Shown here piece after piece: positions 10,559-31,421 of a stretch of 64,000 bases of DNA (positions are counted from its first letter, which is position 1; each line of letters begins with the position of its first letter). The notes below the pieces were generated by a model that saw only the letters and a list, made by a program, of their open reading frames with translations, had not been told where the DNA came from and searched no databases. Source of the stretch: Poseidonibacter lekithochrous (GTDB taxonomy: Bacteria > Campylobacterota > Campylobacteria > Campylobacterales > Arcobacteraceae); the NCBI RefSeq assembly GCF_013283835.1, contig NZ_CP054052.1, positions 248,001 through 312,000 on the forward strand. The letters run 5' to 3'. The position numbers and the translations under genes are program-made.

Positions 10559-10957
10559 ATGAATAAATTTGTTAAGTACGGTGTAGCAGCACTATTAGGA
10601 CTATTTGTATTAACTGGTTGTACTACATTAGCTATTCAAAATGTAGAAAAAGCACCTGTTATTAGTGAAAAGAAGCTATCAGCAACACAAGTAAAAAATA
10701 TCATTAAAAAATCAGGTGAAAAAATTGGATGGAGATTCAAAGAAATTGCTCCTGGTAAAATGATGGGTATTATTAATGTTAGAAATAAACATACTGCAGC
10801 TATAGATATTAAATATGATAAAAACTCATATTCTATTAACTATAAGAAAAGTACTAATTTAAAATATAATGCGGAAAATCAAACAATTCATAAAGCATAC
10901 AATAGTTGGATTACTAACTTAAAAAATGCAATTGATTTTGAATTATCATTAATCTAA
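10559..10957 (+). CDS. Predicted lipoprotein at the head of the DAR block
   Basis: 132 residues with a lipoprotein signal and lipobox LTGC (about 18-21), followed by a small basic domain (KSGEKIGWRFKEIAPGKMMGIINVRNKHTAAIDIKYD). A strong RBS (TTGGAGG, 10548-10554) precedes the ATG. The stop is 4 bases before the darA-like start, so the two are almost certainly co-transcribed. This makes it the first gene of the plus-strand DAR block. I do not recognise a function; an envelope role in pigment placement is inference from location. Confidence 0.72.
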   Translation: MNKFVKYGVAALLGLFVLTGCTTLAIQNVEKAPVISEKKLSATQVKNIIKKSGEKIGWRFKEIAPGKMMGIINVRNKHTAAIDIKYDKNSYSINYKKSTNLKYNAENQTIHKAYNSWITNLKNAIDFELSLI

Positions 10958-10961
10958 AAAT

Positions 10962-11909
10962 TTGAAAAAAGTACTTATTGTAAGTTACTCTCAAACAGGT
11001 CAACTTAGTGAAGTTACATCTTCATTAAGTGCACCTTTGAGATGTAAAGAAATTGAAATACATCATAAAATAATTAAACCAAAAAAAGAATATCCTTTCC
11101 CTTGGAGCTTTTTTGAGTTTATGGATTGTTTTCCAGAGTCTGTTTATTTAGACCCGTGTGAAATCGAAGAAATTGAAGATTCTAATGATTACGATTTAGT
11201 AATTATCTCTTATCAAGTGTGGTTTTTATCACCTTCTATTCCTATTACTTCATTTTTAAAATCAAAGTTTGCAAAAGAAAAATTAAAAGATAAACCTGTA
11301 ATAACTGTTATTGCCTGTAGAAATATGTGGGTTATGGCACAAGAAAAAATGAAAAGTTTATTATCTGATATAAATGCAAAACTTATTGATAATATTGTTT
11401 TAATTGATCAAGGAAGTTCCCTTGCTACATTTATTACAACGCCTAGATGGATGTTAACTGGTAGAAGAAATGCATTTTGGAAAATATTTCCAAAAGCTGG
11501 AGTTGATGAAAAAGAGATTAAAAATGCTTCAAGATTTGGTTTTGCTATAAAAGAGGCTTTGGAAAATAATTTGGAAAAAGAACAAAGAAGTATTTGTTCT
11601 GGACTAAAAGCTGCTAATGTTGATGAAAAATTGATTAAAAGTGAACAAATTGGTACTAAGAGTTTTATGATTTGGGGAAAACTAATTAGAAAGATTGGTA
11701 AAGCAGGGGAATTAAAAAGAAGGCCTTTTATTGCTTTATATACAGTTTTTCTAATTTTAATAATTATGACAGTAGTACCAATTAATATGATTGTTCAAAC
11801 AATTATAAGAAAAATAAGTAAAGAAAAAATATTAAAACAAAAAGCATTTTATGAAATGCCATCAGGTAATGATGATTTTAGGATGAAGGATTTTGCTAAG
11901 AATGAATAA
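10962..11909 (+). CDS. darA: DarA-like dialkylresorcinol condensing enzyme
   Basis: 315 residues. The N-terminus VLIVSYSQTGQLSEV looks like a flavodoxin-type fold start and matches proteins annotated as dialkylresorcinol condensing enzyme. One hydrophobic helix near residues 265-290 (ALYTVFLILIIMTVVPINMI) suggests membrane attachment. In known DAR pathways DarA acts with the ketosynthase DarB to condense and cyclise a beta-ketoacyl thioester with an alpha,beta-unsaturated one, giving the ring that is later aromatised. The start is TTG 4 bases after the lipoprotein gene; no in-frame ATG near the conserved N-terminus is available. It overlaps the darB-like gene by 8 bases. Direct adjacency to a DarB homologue makes the assignment firm. 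Confidence 0.85.
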   Translation: MKKVLIVSYSQTGQLSEVTSSLSAPLRCKEIEIHHKIIKPKKEYPFPWSFFEFMDCFPESVYLDPCEIEEIEDSNDYDLVIISYQVWFLSPSIPITSFLKSKFAKEKLKDKPVITVIACRNMWVMAQEKMKSLLSDINAKLIDNIVLIDQGSSLATFITTPRWMLTGRRNAFWKIFPKAGVDEKEIKNASRFGFAIKEALENNLEKEQRSICSGLKAANVDEKLIKSEQIGTKSFMIWGKLIRKIGKAGELKRRPFIALYTVFLILIIMTVVPINMIVQTIIRKISKEKILKQKAFYEMPSGNDDFRMKDFAKNE

Positions 11910-13041
11910 TGTGTATATAAATAATGTTCAAAAGTATATGCCAAATGAACCAGTTTTTAATGATGATATTGAAGATTATTTAGGTTGTATAGGTGGTAAA
12001 AAATCAAAAGCTAGAAAAATTGTTTTAAGAAGCAATGGTATAAAAAGAAGATTTTATGTTTTAGAAAAAGGAACACAAAAGGCACTTTATTCAAATGCAA
12101 GACTTACTGCAAATGCAATTAGAAAACTAGAAAATGATAACTTTAAATTGGATGATTTAGAGTGTTTATCATGTGGAACAACATCTCCTGATCAACTTAT
12201 GCCAAATCATGCTTTAATGGTTCATGGGGAACTAAAATTAGATGAAATTGAGGTACTAAGTGCTGCTGGTATTTGTTTAAGTGGTATTAATGCTTTAAAA
12301 TATGTTTATTATGCAGTGAAATGTGGTGAAATAAAATCTGGAGTATCAACTGGGTCTGAAACTGCATCTGCGATATTAAGTGCGAAAAATTTTGAAGAAG
12401 AATCAAAAAATCTTCAAGACTTAGAGCAAAATCCACAAGTAGCCTTTGAAAAAGATTTCTTAAGATGGATGTTATCAGATGGTGCAGGAGCTATGCTTCT
12501 TCAAGATAAGCCAAATGAGCATAAAGACTCATTGAAAATTGAATGGATTGATGCTTTATCTTATGCGGGTGAAATGCCAGTTTGTATGTATAGTGGTGGA
12601 GAAGTTGATAAGAACTCTTTCTCTGGGTGGAGAAACTATACTCAAGATCAAGTTATGGAAAAATCTTTATTGAGTGTATCTCAAGATGTGAAACTATTAA
12701 ATGAAAATATTGTTGAATATACTGTAGTAAAACCTCTTAGAAAAATACTTAAAAAAAGAGATATTAAAGTGGAAGATGTTGATTACTTCTTGCCTCATTA
12801 TTCATCTGAATTTTTCAAAGATAAATTATATGCTGGATTAAAAGAGGTTGGTTTTGAAATACCTTTTGAAAAATGGTTTACAAACTTAACACAATTTGGA
12901 AATACTGGTTCTGCATCTATTTATATTATTTTAGAAGAATTATTTAACTCAGGGAAACTAAAAAAAGGTGAAAAACTACTTTGTTATGTTCCTGAAAGTG
13001 GAAGATTCTCAACTGCATTTATGTTATTAGAAGTAGTTTAA
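11902..13041 (+). CDS. darB: DarB-like beta-ketoacyl-ACP synthase III
   Basis: About 379 residues of the KASIII (FabH-like) thiolase fold. The Cys-His-Asn triad is readable: C125 in AAGICLSG, H299 in FLPHYSSEFF, N334 in QFGNTGSAS. DarB condenses the acyl precursors for the dialkylresorcinol head group. I chose ATG 11902 (MNNVYINN) rather than the TTG at 11893, because the AAGGA at 11886-11890 is well spaced only for the ATG. The start overlaps the darA-like stop. The next gene begins at the last base of this stop codon, so the block is translationally coupled. Confidence 0.88.
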   Translation: MNNVYINNVQKYMPNEPVFNDDIEDYLGCIGGKKSKARKIVLRSNGIKRRFYVLEKGTQKALYSNARLTANAIRKLENDNFKLDDLECLSCGTTSPDQLMPNHALMVHGELKLDEIEVLSAAGICLSGINALKYVYYAVKCGEIKSGVSTGSETASAILSAKNFEEESKNLQDLEQNPQVAFEKDFLRWMLSDGAGAMLLQDKPNEHKDSLKIEWIDALSYAGEMPVCMYSGGEVDKNSFSGWRNYTQDQVMEKSLLSVSQDVKLLNENIVEYTVVKPLRKILKKRDIKVEDVDYFLPHYSSEFFKDKLYAGLKEVGFEIPFEKWFTNLTQFGNTGSASIYIILEELFNSGKLKKGEKLLCYVPESGRFSTAFMLLEVV

Positions 13042-13442
13042 TGAAAGAAATAGAAGTTCCAAAAGAAGAAAATAAAACCTTAGATGGTATGCAAAAAGTA
13101 ATGTATACAAAAGACTCTCAAGGAGATTTTATTACAGAGAACTATGGAAGTAATATAGAAGAATTTGCAACTAAAACAGCTGTAGATGAATATGAACTTT
13201 TAAAAGAAGAAGCTCTTTTAGATATGTCAAAAGGGATTTCTTCTCCTATTTGTTTTTTTATGTATGAAAATAGAATGGATTTGCCAACACTAGCTAGTAT
13301 GGTAGGTATGTTTGCATTTAGAGTAAAAAGACATCTTAAAATGAAACATTTCAAAAAATTAAATGAAAAACTTTTACAAAAATATGCAGATACTTTTAAT
13401 ATTAGTATTGATGAATTAAGGAATTTTAAATATGGAAAATAA
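13041..13442 (+). CDS. Small HTH-like protein between darB and BtrH-like gene
   Basis: 133 residues. The C-terminal half (about 78-128) reads like a Cro/C1-type helix-turn-helix: LPTLASMVGMFAFRVKRHLK followed by KLNEKLLQKYADTFNISIDELRNF. The latter matches the usual HTH ending in which helices 4-5 carry an F-I-x-x-x-E-L pattern. The N-terminal half is acidic and unfamiliar. It overlaps the previous gene by one base and the next by 11, so it belongs to the DAR block. A small protein in this position has been seen next to BtrH-like genes in flexirubin-type clusters, from memory. It may act as a regulator or as a partner of the BtrH-like protein. Confidence 0.68.
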   Translation: MKEIEVPKEENKTLDGMQKVMYTKDSQGDFITENYGSNIEEFATKTAVDEYELLKEEALLDMSKGISSPICFFMYENRMDLPTLASMVGMFAFRVKRHLKMKHFKKLNEKLLQKYADTFNISIDELRNFKYGK

Positions 13443-14421
13443 CTTTAAACACTCTCAATTTGCACACTGTGAAAGTGGAGTAATTTCTACATTAATTTCA
13501 TCTTATGGGCTAAAACTATCAGAACCTATGGCTTTTGGTATTACTAGCACTTTATCTTTTGTTTTTATTCCTTTAGTAAAAATAAATGGAATGCCTTTAA
13601 TTGCTTATAGAGATTTACCTAAAAATATTGTAAAAAAAATATCAAAAGTTCTAAATATTAAAATGAATAAAAAAGTTTATTCAAATAAAGAAGAAGCAAA
13701 TGAGGAATTAACATCTTTAGTAAATGATGGAAATCTTGTGGGGCTTCAAACTTCTGTATTTTATCTTCCATATTTTCCAAAAGATATGAGATTTCATTTT
13801 AATGCACATAATTTACTAGTTTATGGAAAAGAGAATAATGATTATCTTATCTCTGATCCAGTATTTGAAGAAGAAGTAAAATGTAATGAAAATGAATTAA
13901 ACAAAGCTAGATTTGCAAAAGGTGCTTTTGCACCTAAAGGTTTTATTTATTATCCGGATGAAATTCCAAAAGATATTGATTTTTCTTCTATTATAAAAAA
14001 AGCTATAAAGAAAAATGCAAAATCAATGCTTACTCCTTTTCCATTTGCAGGTGTAAAAGGAATGAATAAATTAGCAAAGAAAATCTCTACATTAAAAAGA
14101 GATAATAATGATAGGTTTTTAAAAAACTATTTAACTCATATTGTTAGAATGCAAGAAGAAATAGGAACAGGTGGTGGGGGATTTAGATTTCTTTATGCTG
14201 CTTTTCTAAGTGAATCAAAACAGTATAATTTAGATGAAAAGATTTTAGATGAAGCTTCAGCTTTATTAATAAAATCTGGAAATACTTTAAGAGAGTTTGC
14301 TCTTTTATGTGTAACAGCTAGTAAAAACTTAGATAAGTTTGATGCTAAGGTAATTGCCAAAAAATTAGAAGAAGCTTCTTCTTATGAAAAAGAAGCTTTT
14401 ACTTTATTAAAAAAAATATAG
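13432..14421 (+). CDS. BtrH N-terminal domain protein, putative acyltransferase
   Basis: 329 residues. The first 35 residues (QFAHCESGVISTLISSYGLKLSEPMAFGI) match the start of the BtrH N-terminal domain, with the conserved His-Cys pair and SE/FG motifs. The C-terminal part resembles the DUF4872 extension. In butirosin synthesis BtrH transfers an acyl chain from an ACP to an amine or hydroxyl acceptor. Members occur in APE and flexirubin-type clusters. A plausible role here is ester bond formation between the polyene acyl-ACP and the resorcinol hydroxyl. That role is inference. It ends one base from the stop region of the convergent operon. Confidence 0.78.
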   Translation: MENNFKHSQFAHCESGVISTLISSYGLKLSEPMAFGITSTLSFVFIPLVKINGMPLIAYRDLPKNIVKKISKVLNIKMNKKVYSNKEEANEELTSLVNDGNLVGLQTSVFYLPYFPKDMRFHFNAHNLLVYGKENNDYLISDPVFEEEVKCNENELNKARFAKGAFAPKGFIYYPDEIPKDIDFSSIIKKAIKKNAKSMLTPFPFAGVKGMNKLAKKISTLKRDNNDRFLKNYLTHIVRMQEEIGTGGGGFRFLYAAFLSESKQYNLDEKILDEASALLIKSGNTLREFALLCVTASKNLDKFDAKVIAKKLEEASSYEKEAFTLLKKI

Positions 14422-14449
14422 GCTATTTAGTTAACTTTACTAAATAACC
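14410..14449. terminator. Hairpin at the convergent end of the two pigment operons
   Basis: GGCTATTTAGT (14421-14431) and ACTAAATAACC (14439-14449) form an almost perfect stem. On the minus strand it is followed by TATATTTTTTTT, a good U-tract, so it should end the 14-gene minus-strand operon. The stem includes the final codons and stop of that operon. On the plus strand the U-tract is weaker. Confidence 0.65.
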
Positions 14450-15244
14450 CTTATTATTCTTATCCAGTGATAAATAAACAAAACTTTTTTTGTCACTATC
14501 TAACATAGAAATAATGTTCACACTTCCATGTATATTATCATGAGAAAGAATCAAGTTTTCATTTATTTCTAATTCCTTTATTTGTTTTGTAGCATATTGA
14601 TTTAATGATATTAATTCAAAGTCAATATTTAAAAGTAATTCTTTTAGCTCTTTAAGATTTGAGAATTGAGTAAATTCTTTTATCTCTGCAAGGGAATTTT
14701 CTTTTTCTTTATTTATATAAATCCAAGAACTAATATCTTTTGATGGGTTTTCATTTACATTAGATACATACTTATTAAAATCATCTATTTCACTAATAGA
14801 CTCATCTACATTACCAATTAATAAATCATCTATTTCGTTTAGTTCTAAATCAAATAAAGCAAGTTCTAGTGTTTTTTCAAAAGATAAATCATGTGAAGTT
14901 AACACCATATTTTTACCATTTGATTTAAGGGCTTGAGATACGTAAAAACTTACATTGTTACTATTTATATTTAGAAAATCAAATGGCATAACAATACTAT
15001 CTTGACTAACTTGTTCTAATACAGTCTTTACACTTGTAATTGAACCATATTCACTTGCAACATAAATTCCCATGTTTTTGCTAATATTTTTTTCATTCAT
15101 ACATCTTAAAGCACCTAAAATTGCTAAGATATTAAACTTACTAGACCTTCGTAAATTTATTTTTGATATCTCTTTTAGAGCACTTTTATATGTTTTAATA
15201 CTTTGGTTTTCATTGTTTAATGTGTAGGTTTTATGAATATACAT
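14423..15244 (-). CDS. Ketosynthase-like protein without catalytic residues (CLF-type partner 1)
   Basis: 273 residues, shorter than a full ketosynthase (about 400). It resembles the beta-ketoacyl synthase N-terminal-like family: there is an LRRSSKFNILAILGALRCM helix and a GIYVASEYGSITSV strand-turn that matches the KS fold, but no Cys nucleophile or active-site histidines at the expected places. In E. coli APE synthesis such proteins act as chain-length-factor-like partners of an active KS. It follows the active KS (15246-16397) by one base in the same operon, so the two likely form a heterodimer. It is the last gene of the operon. Confidence 0.72.
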   Translation of the reverse strand: MYIHKTYTLNNENQSIKTYKSALKEISKINLRRSSKFNILAILGALRCMNEKNISKNMGIYVASEYGSITSVKTVLEQVSQDSIVMPFDFLNINSNNVSFYVSQALKSNGKNMVLTSHDLSFEKTLELALFDLELNEIDDLLIGNVDESISEIDDFNKYVSNVNENPSKDISSWIYINKEKENSLAEIKEFTQFSNLKELKELLLNIDFELISLNQYATKQIKELEINENLILSHDNIHGSVNIISMLDSDKKSFVYLSLDKNNKGYLVKLTK

Positions 15245-15245
15245 T

Positions 15246-16397
15246 TTAACTCTTATTACTTAATATAATTGAACTATTATTTCCACCAAATGCTACAAAA
15301 TTAAATAAAATAGTTGCTTTATTTATATTAGTTTTGTGCTCCTTTAAAGGAATAAATTTTATTTCTTCTTCGGCTTTTTCAAATCCTAAAGTTGCAGGTA
15401 AAAAATCTTTTTCAATACAGTAAAGTAAAAATGCAATTTCATTTGTACCACATGCACCTAGGGTATGACCTAAATAAGGTTTTAGTGCTGTTACTTCTGT
15501 ATTTGTTTCATAAGTATTAAATAAAGTATTTATAGCTTTAGCTTCAGAAGAGTTATTATTTTCACTTCCTGTTGCATGTGCTTTTATTAAATCAATATCA
15601 TTTAATGTTAAATTAGCACTTGTTATTGAATCATTCATGCAATTAAAAATTGGTTCACCACTTGGATTACTTGTTGTTTCTGAATAATTATCACAAATAT
15701 TTGAAGATGAAATATATTTAAAATCACTGTCTTTATTTTTTTTTGAATCTAAAACAAGAGCAGAACATCCTTCTCCTAGAATAATTCCATCACTTTTTTC
15801 ATCAAAAGGTCTATAAACTTTATTTTGAGATAAAAGCATAAGAGAAGAAAAACCATTAAAAGTACTTTTATTAAATAACTCTATTCCAATTACTATAGCT
15901 TTTTTGATTTTCCCATGTTTAATTAGTTTTGATGCATAGGCTAAAGCATTTGTACTTGAAGTACATGCTGTTGAGAAGATATTAGATTTATATTTACTTT
16001 GTAAATACTCCTCTATAAATGTACCAATATGACCATATCCAATATGTGATAACTCATCTGTATGTTTTTCTTCATGAAATTCTTTATTTATTTGTTCATC
16101 AACAGAAATTCCCATAGATGTTGAACCTATAAATATATGTAATTCTTCTTTCTCATTTGAATTTATTTTAGCATCAATAAGAGCATCATCAATTACTTTT
16201 TTTAAAATGTCAAAAAATTTGTTTTTTTGGCAAGAGTAAGATTCTTCAATTTCATAAAAAGCTTTATCTTTAAATTTATTTTCTAAAAAAGATAAATAGT
16301 TATTTTGATTTAAACTATTAACTTTTTGAGTAATACTTTCTTTATTATTACCCAAGTTACAATGTAGGGATTTACCTATAATATAAGTTTCTTTCAA
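15246..16397 (-). CDS. Beta-ketoacyl-ACP synthase (FabF-like), pigment ketosynthase 1
   Basis: 383 residues with a complete KAS I/II Cys-His-His triad: C145 in STACTSSTN, H274 in KAHATGSEN and H311 in YLGHTLGACG. It catalyses decarboxylative condensation of malonyl-ACP with the growing acyl chain. It is placed between the ACP gene (2 bases upstream) and the CLF-type partner. A GGNNSS C-terminal motif is also typical. It is co-transcribed with the starter lyase and ligase, so it is likely the polyene elongating enzyme or one of two with different chain length ranges. Confidence 0.9.
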   Translation of the reverse strand: MKETYIIGKSLHCNLGNNKESITQKVNSLNQNNYLSFLENKFKDKAFYEIEESYSCQKNKFFDILKKVIDDALIDAKINSNEKEELHIFIGSTSMGISVDEQINKEFHEEKHTDELSHIGYGHIGTFIEEYLQSKYKSNIFSTACTSSTNALAYASKLIKHGKIKKAIVIGIELFNKSTFNGFSSLMLLSQNKVYRPFDEKSDGIILGEGCSALVLDSKKNKDSDFKYISSSNICDNYSETTSNPSGEPIFNCMNDSITSANLTLNDIDLIKAHATGSENNNSSEAKAINTLFNTYETNTEVTALKPYLGHTLGACGTNEIAFLLYCIEKDFLPATLGFEKAEEEIKFIPLKEHKTNINKATILFNFVAFGGNNSSIILSNKS

Positions 16398-16399
16398 AT

Positions 16400-16666
16400 T
16401 TATTCCGGTTGAATATAGTCAGCTAAAGTATTAATAGAAACCATAATCTTTCTAAGTTTTTTACTATCATTAGCTTCTATTCCATACTCTTTTTGTAAAG
16501 CCATTGATATTTGTAAAGCATCCATAGAGTCAAGCTCTAATGCGCACTCTTCACTAAATAAAATATCATCATCATTTATATCTGATGCCTCTATATCCTT
16601 ATCACATTCTTCAATTATAAGCTCTTTTAACTCTTTTTTGAAGTTATCATCTTTTGAACCAATCAT
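16400..16666 (-). CDS. Acyl carrier protein 1 of the pigment cluster
   Basis: 88 residues, acidic, helical. The phosphopantetheine site is S47 in LELDSMDAL. It carries the growing polyene as thioester. It follows the ABC permease with a 4-base overlap (ATGA-like) and precedes the ketosynthase, an order usual in type II PKS operons. No phosphopantetheinyl transferase gene is visible, so the cell's general enzyme must modify it. Confidence 0.88.
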   Translation of the reverse strand: MIGSKDDNFKKELKELIIEECDKDIEASDINDDDILFSEECALELDSMDALQISMALQKEYGIEANDSKKLRKIMVSINTLADYIQPE

Positions 16667-17823
16667 TTACTACCTTTTTTTATTAATAATATATAAGAAA
16701 TAATGAAGCATATTATAGCAAAAAGAGTTAATTTAAAAATATACTCTTTTATATCTACAAAAGTTCCACCTTTTACAAAAATTTCTAAGAAACTATCTAA
16801 TGCCCAAGACATTGGAGAGAGTTCTGAAATCTCTTGCATACTTTGTGGCATTATGAACTTAGGCACCATAATTCCACCAAGGGCTGCTAGAATAATATTT
16901 GATATTCCACCTATTGTTGTAGCATCTTCACTTTTATTAGCTATGTTTGCAATAACTAAGGCAAAAGATATTGCACTTAATGAAACAACTGAAGCTAATA
17001 AAAATATAAGAGCAATATTCCCTTTAATTTGTAAACTATCTGCTCCTAAAATAGGCATTAAATAAATACCAATAAGAATCATAAATAGAACTTGAAACAA
17101 GTTAATTACATAATAAGGAACAATTTTTCCTAGTAAAATTGGCATCATTGATACATTAATGCTTTTTATTCTATTTAATGTTCCAAAGTTCTTTTCATTT
17201 ATAAATGTATTTGATATTGGAATTAGAATAAAAAACATAGAAAATATAAGCCAAGCAGGTACACTTTGTTGTACAGAAGTTATATTAAAACTATTCTCTT
17301 TTGATATATAATGATGTTTAATACTTTTATTAAAATCTTTTGTTTCTTGGGTATTTACATCAAGTTGGATTAATAAATTTTTGATTAGTTGTTTACTAAT
17401 ATTTGAGCTAATAAGGCTTTTTAAAAGATTAATATTTTGAATAGACATATCAGATGTTGAAAAAACATCAACATTTATATCTTTGTTTTTTTGTATGTCT
17501 TTTAAATATGAACTTGGTATTTCTATTAAAAAACTATAATTTTGTGAATATAAAATATCTTTTTTATTTTGTGTTGATTTAGAAAACTTAACATTAAAAT
17601 AGTTATTATCTTGAAGTTTATCTAATAAATCTTTTATATCTTTAGACTCTTTTTCTGATGTTAAAAGTACATCAAATTTTACATCAATACTATTTGAATA
17701 TGTGTTTTTTAAAGCTAATGACATAATAATGATAAAAACACTAGGCATTACAAATAAAACAAGTAAAGCATGTAGATTTCTAAAGATTAATAAGAACTCT
17801 TTTTTTAGTATATATTTAAACAT
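16663..17823 (-). CDS. ABC-2 type transporter permease
   Basis: 386 residues with the ABC-2 layout. An N-terminal transmembrane helix (about 20-40) is followed by a large extracytoplasmic domain (about 45-185) and five to six C-terminal helices (from PAWLIFSMFFILIPISNTF to FAIICFIISYILL). The conserved LSPMSWALDSFLEIF segment before the last helix is typical. It pairs with the ATPase immediately upstream, whose start it abuts. Together they should export or flip a hydrophobic product. Its position inside the operon suggests a pigment or lipid precursor as cargo. That is inference. Confidence 0.9.
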   Translation of the reverse strand: MFKYILKKEFLLIFRNLHALLVLFVMPSVFIIIMSLALKNTYSNSIDVKFDVLLTSEKESKDIKDLLDKLQDNNYFNVKFSKSTQNKKDILYSQNYSFLIEIPSSYLKDIQKNKDINVDVFSTSDMSIQNINLLKSLISSNISKQLIKNLLIQLDVNTQETKDFNKSIKHHYISKENSFNITSVQQSVPAWLIFSMFFILIPISNTFINEKNFGTLNRIKSINVSMMPILLGKIVPYYVINLFQVLFMILIGIYLMPILGADSLQIKGNIALIFLLASVVSLSAISFALVIANIANKSEDATTIGGISNIILAALGGIMVPKFIMPQSMQEISELSPMSWALDSFLEIFVKGGTFVDIKEYIFKLTLFAIICFIISYILLIKKGSK

Positions 17824-22987: not shown

Positions 22988-22990
22988 AAC

Positions 22991-23701: not shown

Positions 23702-25222
23702 TTATATAAATTTTCCATCAGTTAATAATGTTTTTAAGTTCTTAATATCAATATCCATTCTTCTATCTTCATATAGAGGTTTTACAATTGCTCTAATTTC
23801 ATCATGAATATTTTTTAAGTGTGGTGAAACTTCTGCTTCTCCTCTAATATCAACAGCTTGTGCCATTCCAATAAATGCAATTGATAACATATTATGTAAA
23901 TCAGGCATCATTTTTGCAAAATCATTAGCAGCAGTTGTTCCCATAGATACTTTATCTTGATTTAAAGATTCAGTTGGTCTTGAGTGAATAGATGCAGCAG
24001 TTGTATTTTTGATTACATCAGCACTTAATGAACTTAATGAAATCTGCATAGCTTTAAATCCGTGGAAAAATGGCTCTTTTGATAACTTTAAGTTCTCACC
24101 TAATCCTCTATTGAATTTATGGTCAACTAATAATGCAAACTCTTTATCTAATAAGTCAGCTAAGTTAGCAGCACAAATTTTAAGTGTATCCATAGCATGA
24201 GCTACATATCCACCATAGAAGTTACCAGATGTATAAATCTTTTGATTTTCACCATCAATTAATGGGTTGTCATTTACAGAGTTAATTTCTGTTTCAACCC
24301 AGTTTTTAGAGATATTTAAATTGTCTCTAATTACTCCAAGAACTTGAGGTGCACATCTCATTGAGTATGTATCTTGAATATTTAAATGATTATCAGCAAA
24401 GAATTTGTCATATCTATCATCTCTACCATGAGTTAATTTTGAACCTTGAATTTTTGTTTGAATATTTTTTGCACTTGCGATTTGTCCGCTAAATGGTTTT
24501 GAATCATGTACAAAATCAGCAACAGGAGTGTCATCTCCTAATAATACTTCAAACATACCAGCAACATAAGATTCCATTGAATCTAAAATTACTTCAAACT
24601 CTTCAATAGCTTTAAGAGCAATAGCACTCATAATAGTAGTACCATTCATAATTGCTAAGGCTTCTTTAGGCTCAAACTCATAAGGAGTAATATTTAGTTC
24701 ATTATAAACTTCCATTACATCTTTGATTTCACCTTTATAATAAACTTCTCTCTCCCCTGCAACAACAGCTGCAATATAAGACAATGGTGTTAAGTCTCCA
24801 CTTGCACCAACTGAACCTTGAGATGGAATAACTGGAATAATATCTTTTTGAATTAGCATCTCTAATCTATGAAGTAGATTTATTGAAACACCAGAACGTG
24901 CTTTACTTAAAGAGATAGTTCTGCAAATTACTGCATATTTACACACTTCATAACTTAGGTTTTTACCAATACCACAACCATGGAATCTAAAAAGATTTGT
25001 TTGTAATTTTGCGGCATCATCGTAGTTTACATAATTTCTACCTGCATCGCCGTAACCTGTAGTAATTCCATAAATTGGTTTACCTTGTTTAATAGTATTC
25101 ATCATAAAATCATGTGTATGATTAATATATTCTATAAACTCTTTATCTTCAGATATTTTAATACTTTGTGCATTACTAATCTCTTCTAAAGATATGTGCC
25201 TTTTATCTATACTTAATTCCAT
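23702..25222 (-). CDS. Aromatic amino acid ammonia-lyase (HAL/PAL/TAL family)
   Basis: 506 residues. The MIO cofactor forms from A140-S141-G142 in GSVGASGDLTPLSY. The catalytic Tyr is Y51 in YGITTGYG. Other family motifs include MRCAPQVLGVI and SVNDNPLI. It should deaminate an aromatic amino acid to an aryl acrylate. The selectivity pair is F80-H81 (LFRFHGCGIG). By comparison with remembered sequences, HAL and Flavobacterium TAL have Ser-His, PAL has Phe-Leu, and Rhodobacter TAL has His-Leu at these positions, so the substrate is not obvious. Neighbouring ligase and KS genes support a role in supplying the starter, rather than histidine breakdown. Confidence 0.88.
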   Translation of the reverse strand: MELSIDKRHISLEEISNAQSIKISEDKEFIEYINHTHDFMMNTIKQGKPIYGITTGYGDAGRNYVNYDDAAKLQTNLFRFHGCGIGKNLSYEVCKYAVICRTISLSKARSGVSINLLHRLEMLIQKDIIPVIPSQGSVGASGDLTPLSYIAAVVAGEREVYYKGEIKDVMEVYNELNITPYEFEPKEALAIMNGTTIMSAIALKAIEEFEVILDSMESYVAGMFEVLLGDDTPVADFVHDSKPFSGQIASAKNIQTKIQGSKLTHGRDDRYDKFFADNHLNIQDTYSMRCAPQVLGVIRDNLNISKNWVETEINSVNDNPLIDGENQKIYTSGNFYGGYVAHAMDTLKICAANLADLLDKEFALLVDHKFNRGLGENLKLSKEPFFHGFKAMQISLSSLSADVIKNTTAASIHSRPTESLNQDKVSMGTTAANDFAKMMPDLHNMLSIAFIGMAQAVDIRGEAEVSPHLKNIHDEIRAIVKPLYEDRRMDIDIKNLKTLLTDGKFI

Positions 25223-26080
25223 TTACTCTCCCCAAAAATTATAAAAATTGAACCATTGATCTGGATATTCTTTTAGTATCTTTTCTAAAATATTTACATA
25301 TTCTTTCATTGCAGTATCCACTGCAAGGTCTTCTTTTACAGAATAGTCTAATTCAATTTTTAAATGTTTTATTTTATATGTTTGTTTATTTGTATATGCA
25401 ACAAAAAAAACAAGAATGCTCTTTTTTAATTTGTATGCAATTTGAAAGGGATTTTTATTAAATCCTGCTTCTTTATTAAAAAAATCTAATTTTTTATGAT
25501 ATTTTTTGTCATTTGCTCTATCAGCCATCATTGCAACAACTTGGTCATCCATTAATGCATGTGCAATTTTAATAGAAGATGCAATTCCACCTTCATTTAA
25601 ATCAATGATATTAACTTGGAAATTTTGCTTTTCAATTGAGTTTTCAATACTTTTTATTCCATCAAGTAAAGCTTCTTGCATAACTATATTTACTGTATTT
25701 TGTGTAAGTGGTACATTCGCAGCCGTAGCCCAGCCACCATGGTGAGAAGATAATAAAACAGTACCTTCATCTAACGTTTTTGCAAACTCTTCTTTATTAT
25801 CATATTCAAAGTTATATGATGCAGGTGAAAATTTCGAGATAAATCTATCTACCATGCAGTTTGCAAATAGTCTTAAATGAGTAAAATATATATAATTATT
25901 GAAAGGTAAATCTAATTGTTTGTAATATATTTTAAGTGATTTCCTTACATTAGAAGCAAATATAAAATAGAAAAATGTAACAGGATACATTAGGTAATAA
26001 ATAAAGTTGTAACCAAATATTTTATATAAATTAAATACTAATTTAATACTCCAAGCACTACCTCTTTGTTTTGTTTCCAT
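25223..26080 (-). CDS. LPLAT-family acyltransferase-like protein
   Basis: 285 residues resembling the lipid A late acyltransferase (HtrB/MsbB) group found in APE clusters. A basic, hydrophobic N-terminus (FNLYKIFGYNFIYYLMYPVTFFYFIF) anchors it to the membrane. The catalytic block reads SSHHGGWATA: H113 is present, but the residue five places on (A118) is not the usual Glu or Asp. A conserved MMADRANDKK block is seen later. In APE pathways it may acylate the polyene onto a glycerol or lipid carrier. The missing acidic residue leaves its activity uncertain. It starts 3 bases after the GT2 gene. Confidence 0.75.
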   Translation of the reverse strand: METKQRGSAWSIKLVFNLYKIFGYNFIYYLMYPVTFFYFIFASNVRKSLKIYYKQLDLPFNNYIYFTHLRLFANCMVDRFISKFSPASYNFEYDNKEEFAKTLDEGTVLLSSHHGGWATAANVPLTQNTVNIVMQEALLDGIKSIENSIEKQNFQVNIIDLNEGGIASSIKIAHALMDDQVVAMMADRANDKKYHKKLDFFNKEAGFNKNPFQIAYKLKKSILVFFVAYTNKQTYKIKHLKIELDYSVKEDLAVDTAMKEYVNILEKILKEYPDQWFNFYNFWGE

Positions 26081-26083
26081 AAA

Positions 26084-26794
26084 TTACTTTTTTAGACCTA
26101 ATAATTTTAAGAAGTACTTCACCCACTTAAATGGTAAAATTTGTACATGAACCCAAACAATAGCTGCTGTGTCCCAAAACTTACGGAAGTGACTAACTCT
26201 ATCTTCAGAAGTAGGGTAATAACACTCAATTACTACTTCTTTTATTGCTTTACCTGCATCTGCATGTCTTACAATAACTTCCATTTCCCAATCAAATCTA
26301 GATGTTTTAATACTTAAATCTAAAATACTAATAGGGTAAATTCTAAATCCAGATAAAGAGTCTGTGATTTCATGTCCAGTATCCCAAGTAGCCCAGAAAT
26401 TACTAAACCATCTACCAAATTTTGAACCATTTGGAACATTTGAAATATCGAAGTTTCTTGCTCCAATTATTATCTCTTCATCTTCACAATTATCAATTAA
26501 AACTTTTGCTTGGCTTGCAAGGTGTTGACCATCGCCATCTAAACTAACAACATGCGTATATCCAAGCTCTTTAGCTTTTTTAGTACCTGTTATTATTGCT
26601 TGACCTTTTCCTCTATTTTCATTGTGTCTTTCAATAACTAACTTTTCATTTTTAATTAGTAAGTCACTTAGAGGTTTATTAGAACCATCATCAATTACAA
26701 TTACATTATATCCATGAGAAAGTACGTCATCTACTACATCTTGTATAGTATTGAAGTTATTATAAGTAGGTATTATTACAATGAATTTATTCAT
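26084..26794 (-). CDS. Glycosyltransferase family 2
   Basis: 236 residues with GT-A features: IPTYNNFNTIQDVVDDVL at the N-terminus, VIVIDDGSNKPL (nucleotide-binding acidic residues) and VSLDGDGQHLASQA as the DxD-containing motif. It is of the dolichyl-phosphate-mannose-synthase-like class. APE operons commonly carry such an enzyme next to the LPLAT-like gene. Sugar donor and acceptor are not predictable. It overlaps the dehydratase gene upstream by 8 bases. Confidence 0.9.
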   Translation of the reverse strand: MNKFIVIIPTYNNFNTIQDVVDDVLSHGYNVIVIDDGSNKPLSDLLIKNEKLVIERHNENRGKGQAIITGTKKAKELGYTHVVSLDGDGQHLASQAKVLIDNCEDEEIIIGARNFDISNVPNGSKFGRWFSNFWATWDTGHEITDSLSGFRIYPISILDLSIKTSRFDWEMEVIVRHADAGKAIKEVVIECYYPTSEDRVSHFRKFWDTAAIVWVHVQILPFKWVKYFLKLLGLKK

Positions 26795-27089
26795 AAATTA
26801 TCTCACTTATTTTTTTATCTTCAAGATTCGTTATAAGAATCTTATTTTTGATTTGACTAAATATAATTTGATTATTAGGTTTTATAATATTTAAGAACTT
26901 AGTTTTTTTAATTTTTTTAATTTTTATGTTAAATAATTCTTGTGCTATATCAATTTGTAAAAAACCAGGTAATATTGGCATATCAGGGAAATGTGCACAA
27001 AAAACGGGATGTTTCTCATTTGATAAAAGAATTTCTATACTTTTTTCATCTTCTCTAATTATAGTATACAAATCGTTTGTAAAGTTCAT
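26787..27089 (-). CDS. Hotdog-fold 3-hydroxyacyl-ACP dehydratase (FabZ/ApeI-like)
   Basis: 100 residues. The dehydratase signature HPVFCAHFPDMPILPGFLQIDIAQ spans about 27-50, with the catalytic histidine H33 and Asp47 in the place of the acidic partner. It is short for FabZ (about 145) and lacks the usual C-terminal strands, as is often the case in APE cluster dehydratases. It is the first gene of the minus-strand operon and faces the ACP gene at 27244 across a 154-base divergent promoter region. Confidence 0.82.
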   Translation of the reverse strand: MNFTNDLYTIIREDEKSIEILLSNEKHPVFCAHFPDMPILPGFLQIDIAQELFNIKIKKIKKTKFLNIIKPNNQIIFSQIKNKILITNLEDKKISEIIYE

Positions 27090-27243
27090 CTATTTCTTTC
27101 TTGTAAAATTAATGTAATTTTACTTTTTTATCACTAAATATTATATTAACTTAATTATTATTAAATATAAAAAGATGATATAAATTATCTATAAGCACTA
27201 TAATAATATAATTTTTGCAATAAAAAGAAGGAAATGTAAAATA
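27090..27243. promoter_or_regulatory. Divergent promoter region of the two pigment operons
   Basis: This AT-rich stretch separates the minus-strand operon from the plus-strand one. TATAAT occurs at 27199-27204 and again at 27207-27212 on the plus strand, either of which could be the -10 box of the ACP/KS operon. No convincing -35 is seen, which is common in Campylobacterota. AGAAGGA at 27226-27232 serves as the RBS for the ATG at 27244, with a rather long spacing. Confidence 0.6.
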
Positions 27244-27498
27244 ATGGCAATAACAAGTAAAGAATTTAAAGAAGTATTAATTCAAGGATTAAACTTAGAA
27301 GACATCGAAACTGACGAAATAGGTGATGATGATGCACTATTTGGAGATGATGGATTAGGATTGGATTCTGTTGATTCAATTGAACTAGTTTTAATTATTG
27401 AAAAAGAGTATGGAGTAAAAATTCAAAATCCTGAAGAATATAATACAATTTTTGCTTCTGTTAATAGCTTATTAACATTTATTAATGAAAATAAATAA
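27244..27498 (+). CDS. Acyl carrier protein 2 of the pigment cluster
   Basis: 84 residues, acidic. The phosphopantetheine attachment serine is S42 in LGLDSVDSIEL. It opens the divergent plus-strand operon and overlaps the next ketosynthase gene by 14 bases. Two distinct ACPs in the locus parallel APE systems that use separate ACPs for starter loading and elongation. Confidence 0.9.
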   Translation: MAITSKEFKEVLIQGLNLEDIETDEIGDDDALFGDDGLGLDSVDSIELVLIIEKEYGVKIQNPEEYNTIFASVNSLLTFINENK

Positions 27499-28603
27499 AA
27501 AAGCTTATATAAACAACTTTCATGCAATATCTTCTGCTGGAAATTCAGCAGAAGAACTTTTTGAATCAATCTGTGAAAAAAAAGATTGTATCTCTATTGA
27601 CTCAACTTATGTAAAAGATAGAAATGTTGCAATTGGAAAGATAAAAAACGATAAATCTTTTAAAGAATTATTACTTGAAGGTTGTAAAAGGGTATTAGAT
27701 GAATCATCATTAAGTGATTATTCAAATACTTTACTTATTGTTGGATCTTCTGTTGGTGGAATGGGTGTAACTGAAAGTGTATATTTCCAAGATAAATCTT
27801 ATGAAAATATTGATTATAAAGAACATACAATTGATTCTATTGCTTATAATCTAAAAAAAGAGTTTACATTTTATGATGATGTATCTTTTTCAACTGCTTG
27901 TACTTCAAGTGCAAATGCTTTGGGTTATGCAAAAGAGGTATTATCAAAAGGTATTTATAAAAATGTATTAGTTGTAGGGGCTGATTCTCTATGTTCAACT
28001 ACAGTATGTGGTTTTGCTGCATTAAGTGTATTATCTTCAAAACCTTGTACTCCTTTTGATAAAAATAGAGAGGGTATGAATGTATCTGAAGCTATTGCCA
28101 TATTACTTTTACAAGATGAAAAAACAGAAAATAGTGTAGAGTTATGTGGAGTTGGTTATAGTTCTGATTCTCATCATATGACTCAGCCTCATCCTGATGG
28201 ATTAGGTGCAAAAAATGCTATAGAAAATGCTTTGAGTGATGCAAGTATTACTTTTGAACAAGTTGATTATATTAATGCTCATGGTACGGGAACAATTGCA
28301 AACGATAACAGCGAAGCAAATGCAGTTGCTTCTTTATTTACTAATAAACCATATTTAGGCTCAACTAAATCATTTACAGGGCATACATTAGGTGCAGCAG
28401 GTGCTATTGAAGCCATAATATCTGTTATGTGTTTGCAAAAACAAATAGTTGTTCCATGTAAAGATTTGGAAACTCCAAATAGAGATGATATATCTTTTAC
28501 AAATGAAGCTTTATCTTCTAACTTAAACTATGTGGTTAGTAACTCTTTTGCTTTTGGTGGTAATAACACAAGTTTAGTTTTTGGGAAATGTAATGAAAAT
28601 TAA
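27485..28603 (+). CDS. Beta-ketoacyl-ACP synthase (FabF-like), pigment ketosynthase 2
   Basis: 372 residues with an intact triad: C139 in STACTSSAN, H266 in NAHGTGT and H300 in FTGHTLGAAG. Its active-site motifs are closer to those of housekeeping FabF than those of ketosynthase 1. It starts inside the ACP gene and is followed by a CLF-type partner with an 11-base overlap, so ACP, KS and partner are translated together. It probably works with ACP2 at another stage or chain length than ketosynthase 1. Confidence 0.9.
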   Translation: MKINKKAYINNFHAISSAGNSAEELFESICEKKDCISIDSTYVKDRNVAIGKIKNDKSFKELLLEGCKRVLDESSLSDYSNTLLIVGSSVGGMGVTESVYFQDKSYENIDYKEHTIDSIAYNLKKEFTFYDDVSFSTACTSSANALGYAKEVLSKGIYKNVLVVGADSLCSTTVCGFAALSVLSSKPCTPFDKNREGMNVSEAIAILLLQDEKTENSVELCGVGYSSDSHHMTQPHPDGLGAKNAIENALSDASITFEQVDYINAHGTGTIANDNSEANAVASLFTNKPYLGSTKSFTGHTLGAAGAIEAIISVMCLQKQIVVPCKDLETPNRDDISFTNEALSSNLNYVVSNSFAFGGNNTSLVFGKCNEN

Positions 28604-29234
28604 TTTAGAAATACTTAGTGCTACTTATTTAGTTGCAGATGAAGAAATTAGTGATTTACGAACAAAAGAGTTAGTTCCTAAAATGGTTTTTAGAAGAAGA
28701 TTAACAAGAGCTGCAAAACTAGTAGTAGAAGCTGTAGAAAAAGTAGGTTTTGAAAATGGAAGAATTGTTTATGGAAGTGCATTCGGTGAATTAAAAGCAA
28801 GTGCCAATATTCTTAGTGCAATTTTAAATGATCAAATGATTTCTCCTACTGATTTCCAAAACTCAGTTTATAATACTGCTGTATCTTATTTATCAATTCT
28901 AAAAAACAATAAAAATGAGATACTGACTATTTCTAGTGGAGATAAAACTGCTGAAAAAATTCTAAAAGTTGGTGCAATTAAAGCTTTAGATGGTGATGAA
29001 ATTTTATTACTAGCTAGTGAAACAATGAATATAGAAAATATTGAACAAATAAATAAATGTATTAATACTTTAGAAAATGTTGTTGCTTTAAAAGTAAGAG
29101 TTACAGAAGAGAAAGCAAATATAAATATTTTAAATGAAAATAACTCAAAGTATCCAGAATCAATTTCTCAAATGATAGAAATTGCAAAAAACTATGATGA
29201 AAATAAACAAAATGTAATTGAGATTCAAATATGA
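28593..29234 (+). CDS. Ketosynthase-like protein without catalytic residues (CLF-type partner 2)
   Basis: About 213 residues from the ATG at 28593; a TTG at 28581 is also in frame but has no better RBS. The sequence follows the N-terminal KS fold (RRRLTRAAKLVVEAVEKVGFENGRIVYGSAFGELKASANILSAI) and lacks the Cys and His residues. It has the same type as the protein at 14423-15244, though only about 210 residues. It is likely a chain-length-factor-like partner of the KS encoded just upstream. Overlap with the next gene is 4 bases (ATGA). Confidence 0.72.
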   Translation: MKINLEILSATYLVADEEISDLRTKELVPKMVFRRRLTRAAKLVVEAVEKVGFENGRIVYGSAFGELKASANILSAILNDQMISPTDFQNSVYNTAVSYLSILKNNKNEILTISSGDKTAEKILKVGAIKALDGDEILLLASETMNIENIEQINKCINTLENVVALKVRVTEEKANINILNENNSKYPESISQMIEIAKNYDENKQNVIEIQI

Positions 29235-29584
29235 ATTTGCCACATCAAGAACCAATTAGATTTGCAAATGAGGTATTAAGCTCTTGTGATAATAAAATTA
29301 TTGCAAGTTGTAAATTTCCTTTTTCTCCTACTTTAGCAATGGCTTGTGAAGCTGCTGCACAAAGTAGTGCAGGATTTGCACAAGAATCTTCTGATCCTAA
29401 AATAGGATTTTTAGTTTCTTTAAAAGATATTCTTTTAATAGAAGATATGAATTTTACAGAAGCAATTGTAGAAATAGAAAGAACATTTGATTTTGGAAGT
29501 ATGAGTGAATATAGTTTCCAATTAAAAAACAATGATATTGCTTACGTAAGTGGTAAAATCACAATTGCTTTAGATAAAAAATAA
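29231..29584 (+). CDS. Hotdog-fold dehydratase (ApeP-like)
   Basis: 117 residues. LPHQEPIRFANEVL at the N-terminus resembles the LPHRxPMLLLDRVL start of 3-hydroxyacyl-ACP dehydratases of the APE type. H5 is the candidate catalytic histidine and E40 in MACEAAAQSSAGFA the acidic partner. In E. coli the two APE dehydratases work as a complex. Here the second one is the protein at 26787-27089, encoded in the divergent operon. Confidence 0.78.
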   Translation: MNLPHQEPIRFANEVLSSCDNKIIASCKFPFSPTLAMACEAAAQSSAGFAQESSDPKIGFLVSLKDILLIEDMNFTEAIVEIERTFDFGSMSEYSFQLKNNDIAYVSGKITIALDKK

Positions 29585-29592
29585 GGAAAATA

Positions 29593-30663
29593 GTGGAAAA
29601 AGAGTTTTTTAATAACTATGAAGATTTAACTGCGATTGAAGCACAGTATGAAGCCCAAAAAATAGCCTTTGCTCCTATTGTTTTCCAAGTTGTAAGAACA
29701 ATGAGAGATTTAAATATTTTAGATATTTTATCTAAAAGTAAAGATGGTTTCACATATGAAGAGTTAGCAATTAAATGTTCTTTAACAAAGTATGGAATTC
29801 AGGTTTTATGTGAAACTGCATTAAGTGCTGGAGTTGTTTTCATAAAAGATGAAAAGGTAACTCTTTCTAAAATTGGTTTTTTTATTAATAGTGATAAAAT
29901 GACAAATGCAAATATGAATTATAATCATCATGTGAATTATCAAGGTCTGTTTTATTTAGATGCTGCAATCAAGAATGAAAAAGCAGAAGGTTTAAAAGTA
30001 TTTGGCCAATGGGATACAATTTATCCAGCTTTATCAACTCTTCCGAAAGATGCTAAAGACAGTTGGTTTACTTTTGATCATTTATATTCTGATTCAGCTT
30101 TTTCTGCTGCAATTAAAAAACTTGAAGAACTAAAGCCTAAAAGTATTTTAGATATTGGTGGAAATACTGGAAAGTTTGCCACTCTTTTTGCTTCATCTAA
30201 TCCTGATATTGAAATTACAATTATGGATCTTCCTCAGCAAATTAAACTTGCAAAACAAACAATTTATGAAAAAAATATTCAAAATATTGCTACTTATGAG
30301 GCTAATATCTTATTAGAAGATACTGTAATTCCAAAAGGCTTTGATATTTATTGGATGAGCCAATTTTTAGATTGTTTTAAAGAAGAACAAATAGTAAATA
30401 TTCTAAAGAAGATTAGAATTTCTATGAATGAAGATAGTGAAATATGTATTATGGAACCTTTTTGGGATAAACAAAGTAATGAAACAGCAGCATATTGTGT
30501 AATTAATACTTCGCCATACTTTACAGCTATGGCAAATGGATATAGCAAAATGTTTAAATATACAGATTTTATAAAATTTATAGAAAAAGCTGGATTAGAG
30601 ATAATCGAAGACACACATGAACTAGGTCTTTGTCAAACTATTATTAGGTGTAAAAAATGTTAA
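29593..30663 (+). CDS. SAM-dependent methyltransferase with winged-helix dimerisation domain
   Basis: 356 residues. The N-terminal part (about 20-95) is a winged helix of the plant/bacterial O-methyltransferase type (TMRDLNILDILSKSKDGFTYEELAIKC). The C-terminal Rossmann domain has the SAM motif ILDIGGNTGKFATLFA, the acidic motif ITIMDLPQQIKLA and a later YWMSQFLDCF segment. Start is GTG with RBS AAGGAAAA. Methylation of an aryl hydroxyl or ring carbon is common in APE and flexirubin pigments, and this enzyme is the only methyltransferase of the locus. Confidence 0.85.
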   Translation: MEKEFFNNYEDLTAIEAQYEAQKIAFAPIVFQVVRTMRDLNILDILSKSKDGFTYEELAIKCSLTKYGIQVLCETALSAGVVFIKDEKVTLSKIGFFINSDKMTNANMNYNHHVNYQGLFYLDAAIKNEKAEGLKVFGQWDTIYPALSTLPKDAKDSWFTFDHLYSDSAFSAAIKKLEELKPKSILDIGGNTGKFATLFASSNPDIEITIMDLPQQIKLAKQTIYEKNIQNIATYEANILLEDTVIPKGFDIYWMSQFLDCFKEEQIVNILKKIRISMNEDSEICIMEPFWDKQSNETAAYCVINTSPYFTAMANGYSKMFKYTDFIKFIEKAGLEIIEDTHELGLCQTIIRCKKC

Positions 30664-31421
30664 AGAAGATTTTATTATTAAGTATTCTATTTGTTAGTAT
30701 GTATGCCAAAGAGTTAAGTTATGGACTTGGTGTTGGTTTTATTTCTACACCTGCTTATATTGGTTCTAATAAACAAAATAATAGATTTTTACCCTTTCCA
30801 TATATTGATTATAAAGGTAAGTATTTTAATATTAATAGAGATAAGATTTATAATCAATTCTATGATAAAAACAGACTTCAAATGGAAGTAAGTATTAGAG
30901 GTATGTTACCTTCAAAGAGTGAAGATACTGCAAGAGAAGGAATGCCAAATCTAGATACTATTTTAGAATTTGGACCAATGCTTACATATAATCTAAGAGA
31001 AGTAGATAATTCTAAGTTAAGTCTTTTATTACCTCTAAGAGCAGCTTTTTCTTTAGGAAGTGATTCTATGTTTGAATATCAAGGAGCATTGGCTTCTTTA
31101 GACTTACAATATAAAGATAGAATTTTCTCAGAATATAATTTTATTATTACTAGTGGTTTAGGATTTAATGATAAAAAAATTAATGATTACTATTATGAAG
31201 TACAATCTCAATATGTAACTTCATCAAGAGAACAATACTCTTCTAAAAGTGGATATTCAGGTTTTCATACGAGCTTAGCATTAACAAAAAAAGACGATAA
31301 ATTCTGGTATGGTGGTTTTATAAAACACTATTATTTAGATGGTGCAGTATTTGAAAAATCACCTTTAGTTGAGACGAAAAATTCACTATTTTATGGATTA
31401 GCCTTTAGTTATTTATTCTAG
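30657..31421 (+). CDS. MipA/OmpV family outer-membrane protein
   Basis: 254 residues with a signal peptide (about 1-17). The mature part has the MipA/OmpV pattern: YGLGVGFISTPAYIGSNKQNNRFLPFPYIDYKGKYFNIN, in which the YxGS and P-x-P-x-x-x-Y segments are hallmarks. It ends in phenylalanine (FSYLF), as expected for an integral outer-membrane barrel. Its start overlaps the methyltransferase stop by 7 bases, so it belongs to the pigment operon. A role in anchoring or exporting the pigment at the outer membrane is inference. Confidence 0.83.
   Translation: MLKKILLLSILFVSMYAKELSYGLGVGFISTPAYIGSNKQNNRFLPFPYIDYKGKYFNINRDKIYNQFYDKNRLQMEVSIRGMLPSKSEDTAREGMPNLDTILEFGPMLTYNLREVDNSKLSLLLPLRAAFSLGSDSMFEYQGALASLDLQYKDRIFSEYNFIITSGLGFNDKKINDYYYEVQSQYVTSSREQYSSKSGYSGFHTSLALTKKDDKFWYGGFIKHYYLDGAVFEKSPLVETKNSLFYGLAFSYLF

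Follow-up and report, generated by a model that had tools for sequence, protein, structure and literature searches.

Results

An intact gene set for a dialkylresorcinol and an aryl polyene

The window analyzed here is a 64,000-nucleotide stretch of the genome of Poseidonibacter lekithochrous (3.57 Mb, single contig), and its subject is a 21-kb locus that carries genes for a dialkylresorcinol (DAR) together with genes for an aryl polyene (APE). According to the list of open reading frames (ORFs) in the window, the locus consists of three blocks, at 10559-14421 on the plus strand, 14423-27089 on the minus strand, and 27244-31421 on the plus strand. The DAR and APE gene set itself spans 10962-30663, with the DAR block at 10962-18683 and the APE block at 18683-30663. 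An NFACT-like gene (8340-9668) lies on one side of the locus and cdsA-dxr (31498 onward) on the other, and all ORFs of the locus are intact. Family calls were made with Pfam and NCBIfam models, and bit scores were set against the curated NCBIfam cut-offs. An initial annotation had named these genes, and all of them are present as ORFs in their places within the three blocks. Most of the names hold up on family scores; those of the MMPL and LolA-like proteins, the ketosynthase (KS)-like partner in the DAR block, and the second dehydratase are weak, and that of DarA follows from place and fold. The DAR block contains the following genes.

10962-11909, plus strand: DarA, probable flavin mononucleotide (FMN)-type aromatase (flavodoxin fold) for the DAR ring; hydrophobic helices at the C terminus; adjoins darB as in Azoarcus; predicted fold
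11893-13041, plus strand: DarB, KS predicted to form the cyclohexanedione ring; NF005293 above cut-off
13041-13442, plus strand: DarG family protein, C-terminal half weakly helix-turn-helix-like; NF053536
13432-14421, plus strand: DarH, BtrH-type acyltransferase proposed to join the polyene to the DAR; NF053550
14423-15244, minus strand: DAR-block KS-like partner, with weak support
15246-16397, minus strand: DAR-block KS (DarJ-like); PF00109/PF02801; C145, H274, and H311 motifs
16400-16666, minus strand: DAR-block acyl carrier protein (ACP; DarC-like); PF00550; LDS motif
16663-17823, minus strand: ATP-binding cassette (ABC)-2 permease (DarI-like); PF12698
17823-18683, minus strand: ABC ATPase (DarF-like); PF00005

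DarB scores 609 bits on the StlD/DarB family model NF005293 (cut-off, 450) and 529 on the DarB-specific model NF053539, narrowly below the cut-off of 550. It matches the solved relative StlD (5gk0) at an E value of 8e-125, its Cys/His/Asn motifs are kept in all 32 aligned rows that have letters there, and its start is probably the ATG at 11902. DarH scores 472 bits on NF053550 (cut-off, 300) and has the Pfam domains BtrH_N and DUF4872; its HC(E), NAH/NMH, and SD motifs are likewise kept in the aligned rows that have letters there. For DarG, the family model NF053536 gives 139 bits (cut-off, 70); its predicted fold (pLDDT 77) has a best Foldseek E value of 0.011, with nothing below 0.001. DarA has no Pfam or NCBIfam match at E 0.001. 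We aligned it with 8 homologues and identified it by position and by its flavodoxin fold: the AlphaFold model, with a mean pLDDT of 83, matches the FMN flavoprotein 3edo in Foldseek at E 4.4e-6. The same list contains G protein-coupled receptor entries, which we take to be flavodoxin fusion constructs; one of them, 6li1, says so. From the modeled fold, FMN may be the cofactor of DarA. The DAR-block KS retains its Cys-His-His motifs. Its KS-like partner matches Pfam ketoacyl-synt at E 0.17, the KS' of the APE block at 31% identity (E 4.6e-5), and a PDB profile at E 0.037.

The APE block contains the genes below.

18683-19900, minus strand: AMP-forming aryl ligase (ApeH/FlxY-like role); PF00501, AMP-binding, 65 bits
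19881-21983, minus strand: resistance-nodulation-division (RND)/MMPL-like exporter (ApeM-like role); homologue and profile evidence
21976-22455, minus strand: LolA-like protein, named by size and place only
22448-22987, minus strand: membrane protein in the ApeG position, named by position
22991-23692, minus strand: ketoreductase (KR; ApeQ/FlxB-like); PF00106, short-chain dehydrogenase/reductase, 170 bits
23702-25222, minus strand: 4-methylideneimidazole-5-one (MIO) ammonia-lyase, proposed maker of a cinnamate or coumarate starter; PF00221
25223-26080, minus strand: lysophospholipid acyltransferase (LPLAT)-like protein (ApeD-like); PF03279, 43 bits
26084-26794, minus strand: family 2 glycosyltransferase (GT2; ApeJ-like); PF00535, 58 bits
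26787-27089, minus strand: dehydratase (DH) subunit with catalytic-type His (ApeI-like); HFP motif; FabZ profile match
27244-27498, plus strand: APE-block ACP; PF00550; NF006617, 72 bits (cut-off, 70)
27485-28603, plus strand: APE KS (ApeO-like); PF02801/PF00109; C139, H266, and H300 motifs
28581-29234, plus strand: APE KS', chain-length-factor half (ApeC-like); PF13723, 75 bits
29231-29584, plus strand: DH partner, Glu of catalytic type (ApeP-like role); named from place and a conserved EAAAQ motif
29593-30663, plus strand: head-group methyltransferase (FlxJ family); NF053543, 460 bits (cut-off, 560)

The APE KS also retains its Cys-His-His motifs. KS' is a half protein that matches PDB entries 7f28 (E 1.1e-7) and 6qsp chain B (E 1.1e-5), both presumably ApeC. 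The HFP of the first DH subunit is present in 16 of 16 aligned sequences, whose profile matches FabZ 4zw0 at E 4.5e-8. The second subunit lacks HFP and has no Pfam, NCBIfam, or PDB match, and the Glu of its EAAAQ motif is kept in 14 of 14. According to passages of PMC8041823, ApeI and ApeP form a heterodimer that has one active site, and by analogy a His in one subunit with a Glu in the other is the pattern expected of such a pair. Among the NCBIfam models, FlxB gives the top score for the KR (244 bits; cut-off, 340). The MMPL-like protein of the window has no MMPL match itself; of its 16 aligned homologues, 3 match Pfam MMPL, at E 0.0019 at best, and the profile built from all 16 matches the RND protein HpnN (6wu0) at E 1.2e-5. 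The LolA-like protein has no meaningful Pfam match even at E 10 and no NCBIfam match, and the protein in the ApeG position matches no Pfam or NCBIfam family.

Two further genes of the locus are probably outside the cluster core.

10559-10957, plus strand: small lipoprotein
30657-31421, plus strand: MipA/OmpV outer-membrane protein, accessory; PF06629, 114 bits

MipA is matched in 1 of 21 other genomes with both gene sets (hybrids) and in none of the 12 loci with APE genes only; it is present in G398, of the same genus. The lipoprotein-like gene at 10559-10957 and a similar small one at 9821-10366 recur beside the cluster in relatives, the former also at some APE-only loci. Scans for promoters and terminators gave counts no higher than in shuffled sequence.

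In the Campylobacterota genomes surveyed, the DAR half occurs only with the APE half

We surveyed 397 Campylobacterota genomes and 14 control genomes. DarH (NF053550) is above cut-off in 22 of the 397 and in none of the controls, and the StlD/DarB family is above cut-off in the same 22 and in one control. Homologues of the APE KS' at E 1.3e-40 or better occur in 34 of the 397, and the next match is at E 1.8e-11; this count takes close homologues only, and the 42 of 76 matched genomes whose matches are at E 1.8e-11 or weaker fall outside it. All 22 genomes with DarH and DarB belong to the 34, and there is no case of DAR without APE among the 397 Campylobacterota genomes.

The remaining 12 have only the APE half. 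DarA, DarB, DarG, DarH, the DAR-block KS, its KS-like partner, the DAR ACP, and the ABC permease are each matched in 0 of these 12 loci, where DarB and DarH are absent genome-wide and the other genes were sought in stretches of about 20 to 36 kb around the loci. A genome-wide search of the APE-only genomes with the DAR KS, which is found in 21 of 21 other hybrids, returned the APE KS itself as best match, plus other KS. The ABC ATPase is matched in 6 of 12 APE-only loci at 30 to 31% identity, distant from the APE genes where it could be placed. The APE genes are found in 11 or 12 of the 12, except for the lyase (8/12) and the methyltransferase (7/12). In the other hybrids, the lyase is present in 21 of 21, the methyltransferase in 14 of 21, the membrane protein in the ApeG position in 18 of 21 (APE-only, 11/12), and LolA in 11 of 21, with an unmatched family of LolA-sized proteins present in 8 genomes. 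Missing genes in hybrids G364, G348, and others are partly due to contig ends. The methyltransferase is not in the compared region of G391. This partition into modules fits esterification of a polyene to a resorcinol, as proposed for flexirubin and arcuflavin.

Four APE-only loci (L145, L151, L161, and L143, in G056, G206, G380, and G381) have no lyase in the stretch examined, so that another enzyme or a source elsewhere must provide their starter; the locus of G381 retains only ACP, KS, KS', and the second DH subunit. The 42 genomes with weak KS' matches, many of them in family f3, show 25 to 38% identity and may mark another APE-like family in Campylobacterota. Relatives also carry genes that the window lacks, named by inspection of their sequences: an alpha/beta hydrolase (14 loci) and a flavin adenine dinucleotide-dependent halogenase-like protein (10). 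The halogenase-like gene, present in 10 genomes (L139-L140 among them), lies in several of these relatives between the first DH subunit and the ACP. Family members thus probably differ in tailoring.

A possibly old chromosomal site

A DarB scan of named genomes gave 13 loci. The nearest full-length DarB proteins are from a Halarcobacter metagenome-assembled genome (90%), a strain labeled P. lekithochrous A1R12 (89%), and Arcobacter BM102 (74%), and a match in UBA7394 is 98% identical over 111 residues. The DarB of G398, of the same genus, is identical to that of A1R12. Outside the phylum, the same single scan gave 54 to 55% for Alteromonadales and 46 to 50% for Bacteroidota. In a DarB tree with 8 outside rows, the Campylobacterota rows lie near one another, and G232 and a Neisseriaceae row are long branches that meet.

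Gene order and gene set recur in close relatives within Arcobacteraceae. DarH is present in 4 of 10 genomes of the same genus, and in a fifth, G400, a contig end cuts the cluster inside darB. In five genomes of the genus without DarH, NFACT is followed by cdsA, with 76 to 840 bases between the aligned ends. In G397, of the same genus, this site is closed as well, and a divergent, differently ordered cluster lies elsewhere (L084-L085, L169; DarB, 56%), which suggests replacement by transfer. The cluster sits between NFACT and cdsA in other genera too (G391, G323 [APE-only]), and in G273 and G346 the two ends of the site are on separate contigs (for G346, the cdsA end only). Taken together, these arrangements suggest that the site is old and that the cluster was lost from it repeatedly and replaced at least once. 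Recent import, as judged by base composition, was rejected: the GC content of the cluster, 25.9%, is inside the low range of the neighboring stretches, and the same NFACT/cdsA site is used in other genera.

Discussion

A proposed pathway to a flexirubin-type pigment

The locus is a well-supported, intact, Arcobacteraceae-wide DAR-APE hybrid gene set of the flexirubin/arcuflavin type, with DarA and DarB, the APE KS/KS', KR, DH, ACP, and ligase, and DarH in one genome. We think it likely that its product is a flexirubin-type pigment of the membrane. What is observed is the gene content, the partition into modules, the conservation of catalytic motifs, and a separate HutH; every reaction below is drawn from relatives. 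The MIO lyase would make an aryl acrylate, probably 4-coumarate from tyrosine, which the ligase would activate onto the APE carrier protein. KS/KS', KR, and the two-subunit DH would then lengthen this starter into an aryl polyene thioester, whose head group may be modified by the methyltransferase. The second ACP/KS/KS' set would supply a beta-keto acyl chain, which DarB would condense with a second acyl unit into a cyclohexanedione, to be aromatized by DarA to the DAR. DarH would transfer the polyenoyl moiety off its carrier onto a resorcinol hydroxyl, and the ABC pair and the RND and LolA-like proteins would carry the pigment to the outer membrane. Tyrosine as the substrate of the lyase and DarH as the joining enzyme are the least secure of these steps. 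Head group, chain length, and ester position are not readable from the sequence.

Several observations weigh against this reading. The P value for co-occurrence of the two halves, 7e-28 by hypergeometric count, takes no account of shared ancestry. In one hybrid, G276, darA, -B, -G, and -H lie about 590 kb from the rest of the cluster, an arrangement that resembles the unlinked arc and dar loci of Azoarcus. No thioesterase, ApeR, or ApeN was recognized at the locus, and all flexirubin-specific NCBIfam models stay below cut-off (FlxA, 354/700; FlxB, 244/340; FlxJ, 460/560; flexirubin DarG, 116/170; DarB, 529/550). In a passage of PMC3992019, the enzyme put forward for the ester of flexirubin is FlxW and not a BtrH protein. 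The cluster lyases have Phe-His (14/18) or Phe-Cys (4/18) at motif 1 and not the His-first pattern of tyrosine ammonia-lyase (TAL) given in PMC3992019; the NCBIfam scores of the window's lyase rank BagA/FevW above HutH above FlxA, all below cut-off; and the specificity of such lyases is not predictable from sequence, as a passage of PMC3992019 says.

These last points bear on the starter. The lyase may instead use phenylalanine or another amino acid, which would leave a head group that is unhydroxylated or different and that shows no color shift in alkali; we regard this as possible, if on the doubtful side. According to the legend to Fig. S1 of PMC3992019, the first position of motif 1 is Phe or His in phenylalanine ammonia-lyase (PAL) but His in TAL, and the window's lyase has Phe. 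Yet FlxA, described there, is a tyrosine lyase in spite of a motif 1 like that of histidine ammonia-lyase (HAL). Motif 2, which the same legend gives as Gln for TAL and PAL and Glu for HAL, is common to the two candidates, and the best-scoring NCBIfam model, though the score is far below cut-off, is that of a tyrosine lyase. The MIO triad, ASG, is conserved in the cluster lyase.

Alternatively, the locus could make two products with no ester between them: an APE lipid, built with GT2 and LPLAT and exported by the RND and LolA-like proteins, and a free DAR, exported by the ABC pair. The GT2, LPLAT, RND-like, and LolA-like genes are each kept in 11 of 12 APE-only loci, passages of PMC8253772 propose ApeD and ApeJ as the enzymes that link the APE to a lipid anchor, and the DAR block has an ABC pair of its own. 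However, DarB and DarH always occur with the APE KS' (22/22), the BtrH-type acyltransferase DarH tracks the DAR block, and Azoarcus makes a hybrid despite its unlinked arc and dar loci. We therefore consider two separate products unlikely.

We consider it very improbable that the cluster is a remnant that is decaying or silent. Its distribution is patchy, even within the genus, and relatives have lost it; against this stand the intact ORFs of the window, the catalytic motifs, and the close relatives that retain the same set.

We also rejected, as hardly credible, a HutH of histidine catabolism that merely happens to sit in the cluster: the HutH models give 374 to 384 bits (cut-offs, 524 and 539), but the genome has its own HutH beside HutU at 2.09 Mb, which scores 606 bits on PF00221 (cluster gene, 475 to 476 bits), has Ser-His at motif 1 and Glu at motif 2, where all 18 Campylobacterota cluster lyases have Gln, and stands apart in the lyase tree, on very long branches and with a single Alteromonadales row, from the 32 Campylobacterota cluster lyases. 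Because of the Gln and the separate HutH, histidine is unlikely to be the substrate.

Comparison with known systems

The flexirubin-like content that the initial annotation described in a Campylobacterota genome is borne out by the family matches and by the parallel gene lists of Azoarcus dar and Escherichia coli ape. In passages of PMC3949708, arcuflavin of Azoarcus sp. BH72 is a polyene-DAR hybrid. The DAR block parallels darA, -B, -D, -E, -F, -I, -C, -J, and -K of that strain, with darA, darB, a conserved hypothetical gene, a BtrH-like gene, the ABC pair, ACP, KS, and a hypothetical gene in common, and the APE core is shared as well. The Azoarcus dar list (PMC3949708, Table 1) also has PilT-domain and prevent-host-death genes, and the DAR block of the window lacks both. 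Azoarcus has unlinked loci and a XanB2-type chorismatase for the starter, whereas the window has one linked locus and an MIO lyase; no XanB2-type chorismatase is among the family matches of the cluster ORFs, which the search covered. With flexirubin of Chitinophaga pinensis and Flavobacterium johnsoniae (passages of PMC3992019), the locus shares the lyase starter, the ligase, polyene assembly like type II fatty acid synthesis, the methyltransferase, DarA/DarB, and the glycosyltransferase, acyltransferase, LolA, and exporter genes. It differs in having far fewer KS, no recognized thioesterase, and another gene order, and in missing the Flx- and Dar-specific models. In the single scan described above, its DarB is closer in identity to Alteromonadales than to Bacteroidota. 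Since the FlxA, FlxB, FlxJ, and flexirubin DarG models are below cut-off, we file the locus as a relative of flexirubin and not as flexirubin proper. The APE block parallels apeB-Q of the E. coli cluster apeA-R (passages of PMC8253772), sharing the methyltransferase, KS', LPLAT, ACP, membrane protein, ligase, DH pair, glycosyltransferase, LolA, RND, KS, and KR; compared with E. coli, ApeK, ApeN, and ApeR are not recognized, the APE block has one ACP, and the DAR block and the lyase are added.

The kind of molecule is already known; the phylum is unusual for such pigments, which are little discussed there. PMC3949708 reports polyene clusters from proteobacteria, Bacteroidetes, and one spirochete, with DAR genes in or next to them in nine genomes, and its main text names neither Arcobacter nor Campylobacter. 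PMC10336517 reports antiSMASH runs on Arcobacteraceae, and its main text is without the words "polyene" and "resorcinol." Searches of the open-access literature, including passages of PMC13106412, PMC9964075, and PMC10336517, turned up no Campylobacterota cluster of the flexirubin or DAR-APE type; subscription articles about such clusters are outside this scope. As far as these searches go, the pigment gene set is new for the phylum and ordinary in kind. The expectation that its exact architecture may give a new pigment is not supported: the same order recurs elsewhere in Arcobacteraceae, and order says little about structure.

The epithet lekithochrous probably means egg-yolk-colored. The word "yolk" is absent from PMC6131481, and a literature search for pigment in Poseidonibacter, which included passages of PMC6131481 and PMC9698959, yielded nothing. 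APEs are described in passages of PMC8253772 and PMC9964075 as antioxidant membrane pigments that aid biofilms, a role that could matter for marine animal-associated bacteria. On whole-locus evidence, a chemotaxonomic marker of Bacteroidota extends to Campylobacterota, in support of the view in PMC3949708 that such pigments serve poorly as taxonomic markers. With the empty sites in sister genomes, the 22 hybrid and the 12 APE-only genomes offer a test bed for genes that make the DAR half, join the halves, and export the product. Tentatively, Campylobacterota may hold a long-established flexirubin-like branch of their own, in which the lyase clade would set a head group absent from Bacteroidota flexirubins and DarH would hand the polyene straight from carrier to resorcinol, without a thioesterase. 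If so, the 12 APE-only relatives would make an unesterified or lipid-linked version.

Other features of the window

Three tandem rRNA operons occupy 40248-57372. Their 16S genes are identical (1517/1517 in both comparisons), only the first operon has tRNA-Ile and tRNA-Ala, and the sequence of 46021-51656 recurs unchanged 5909 bases later. Directly after the array, 58271-61045 encodes a protein of 924 amino acids that looks by eye like a phospholipase D-like and DEAD/helicase restriction-type enzyme.

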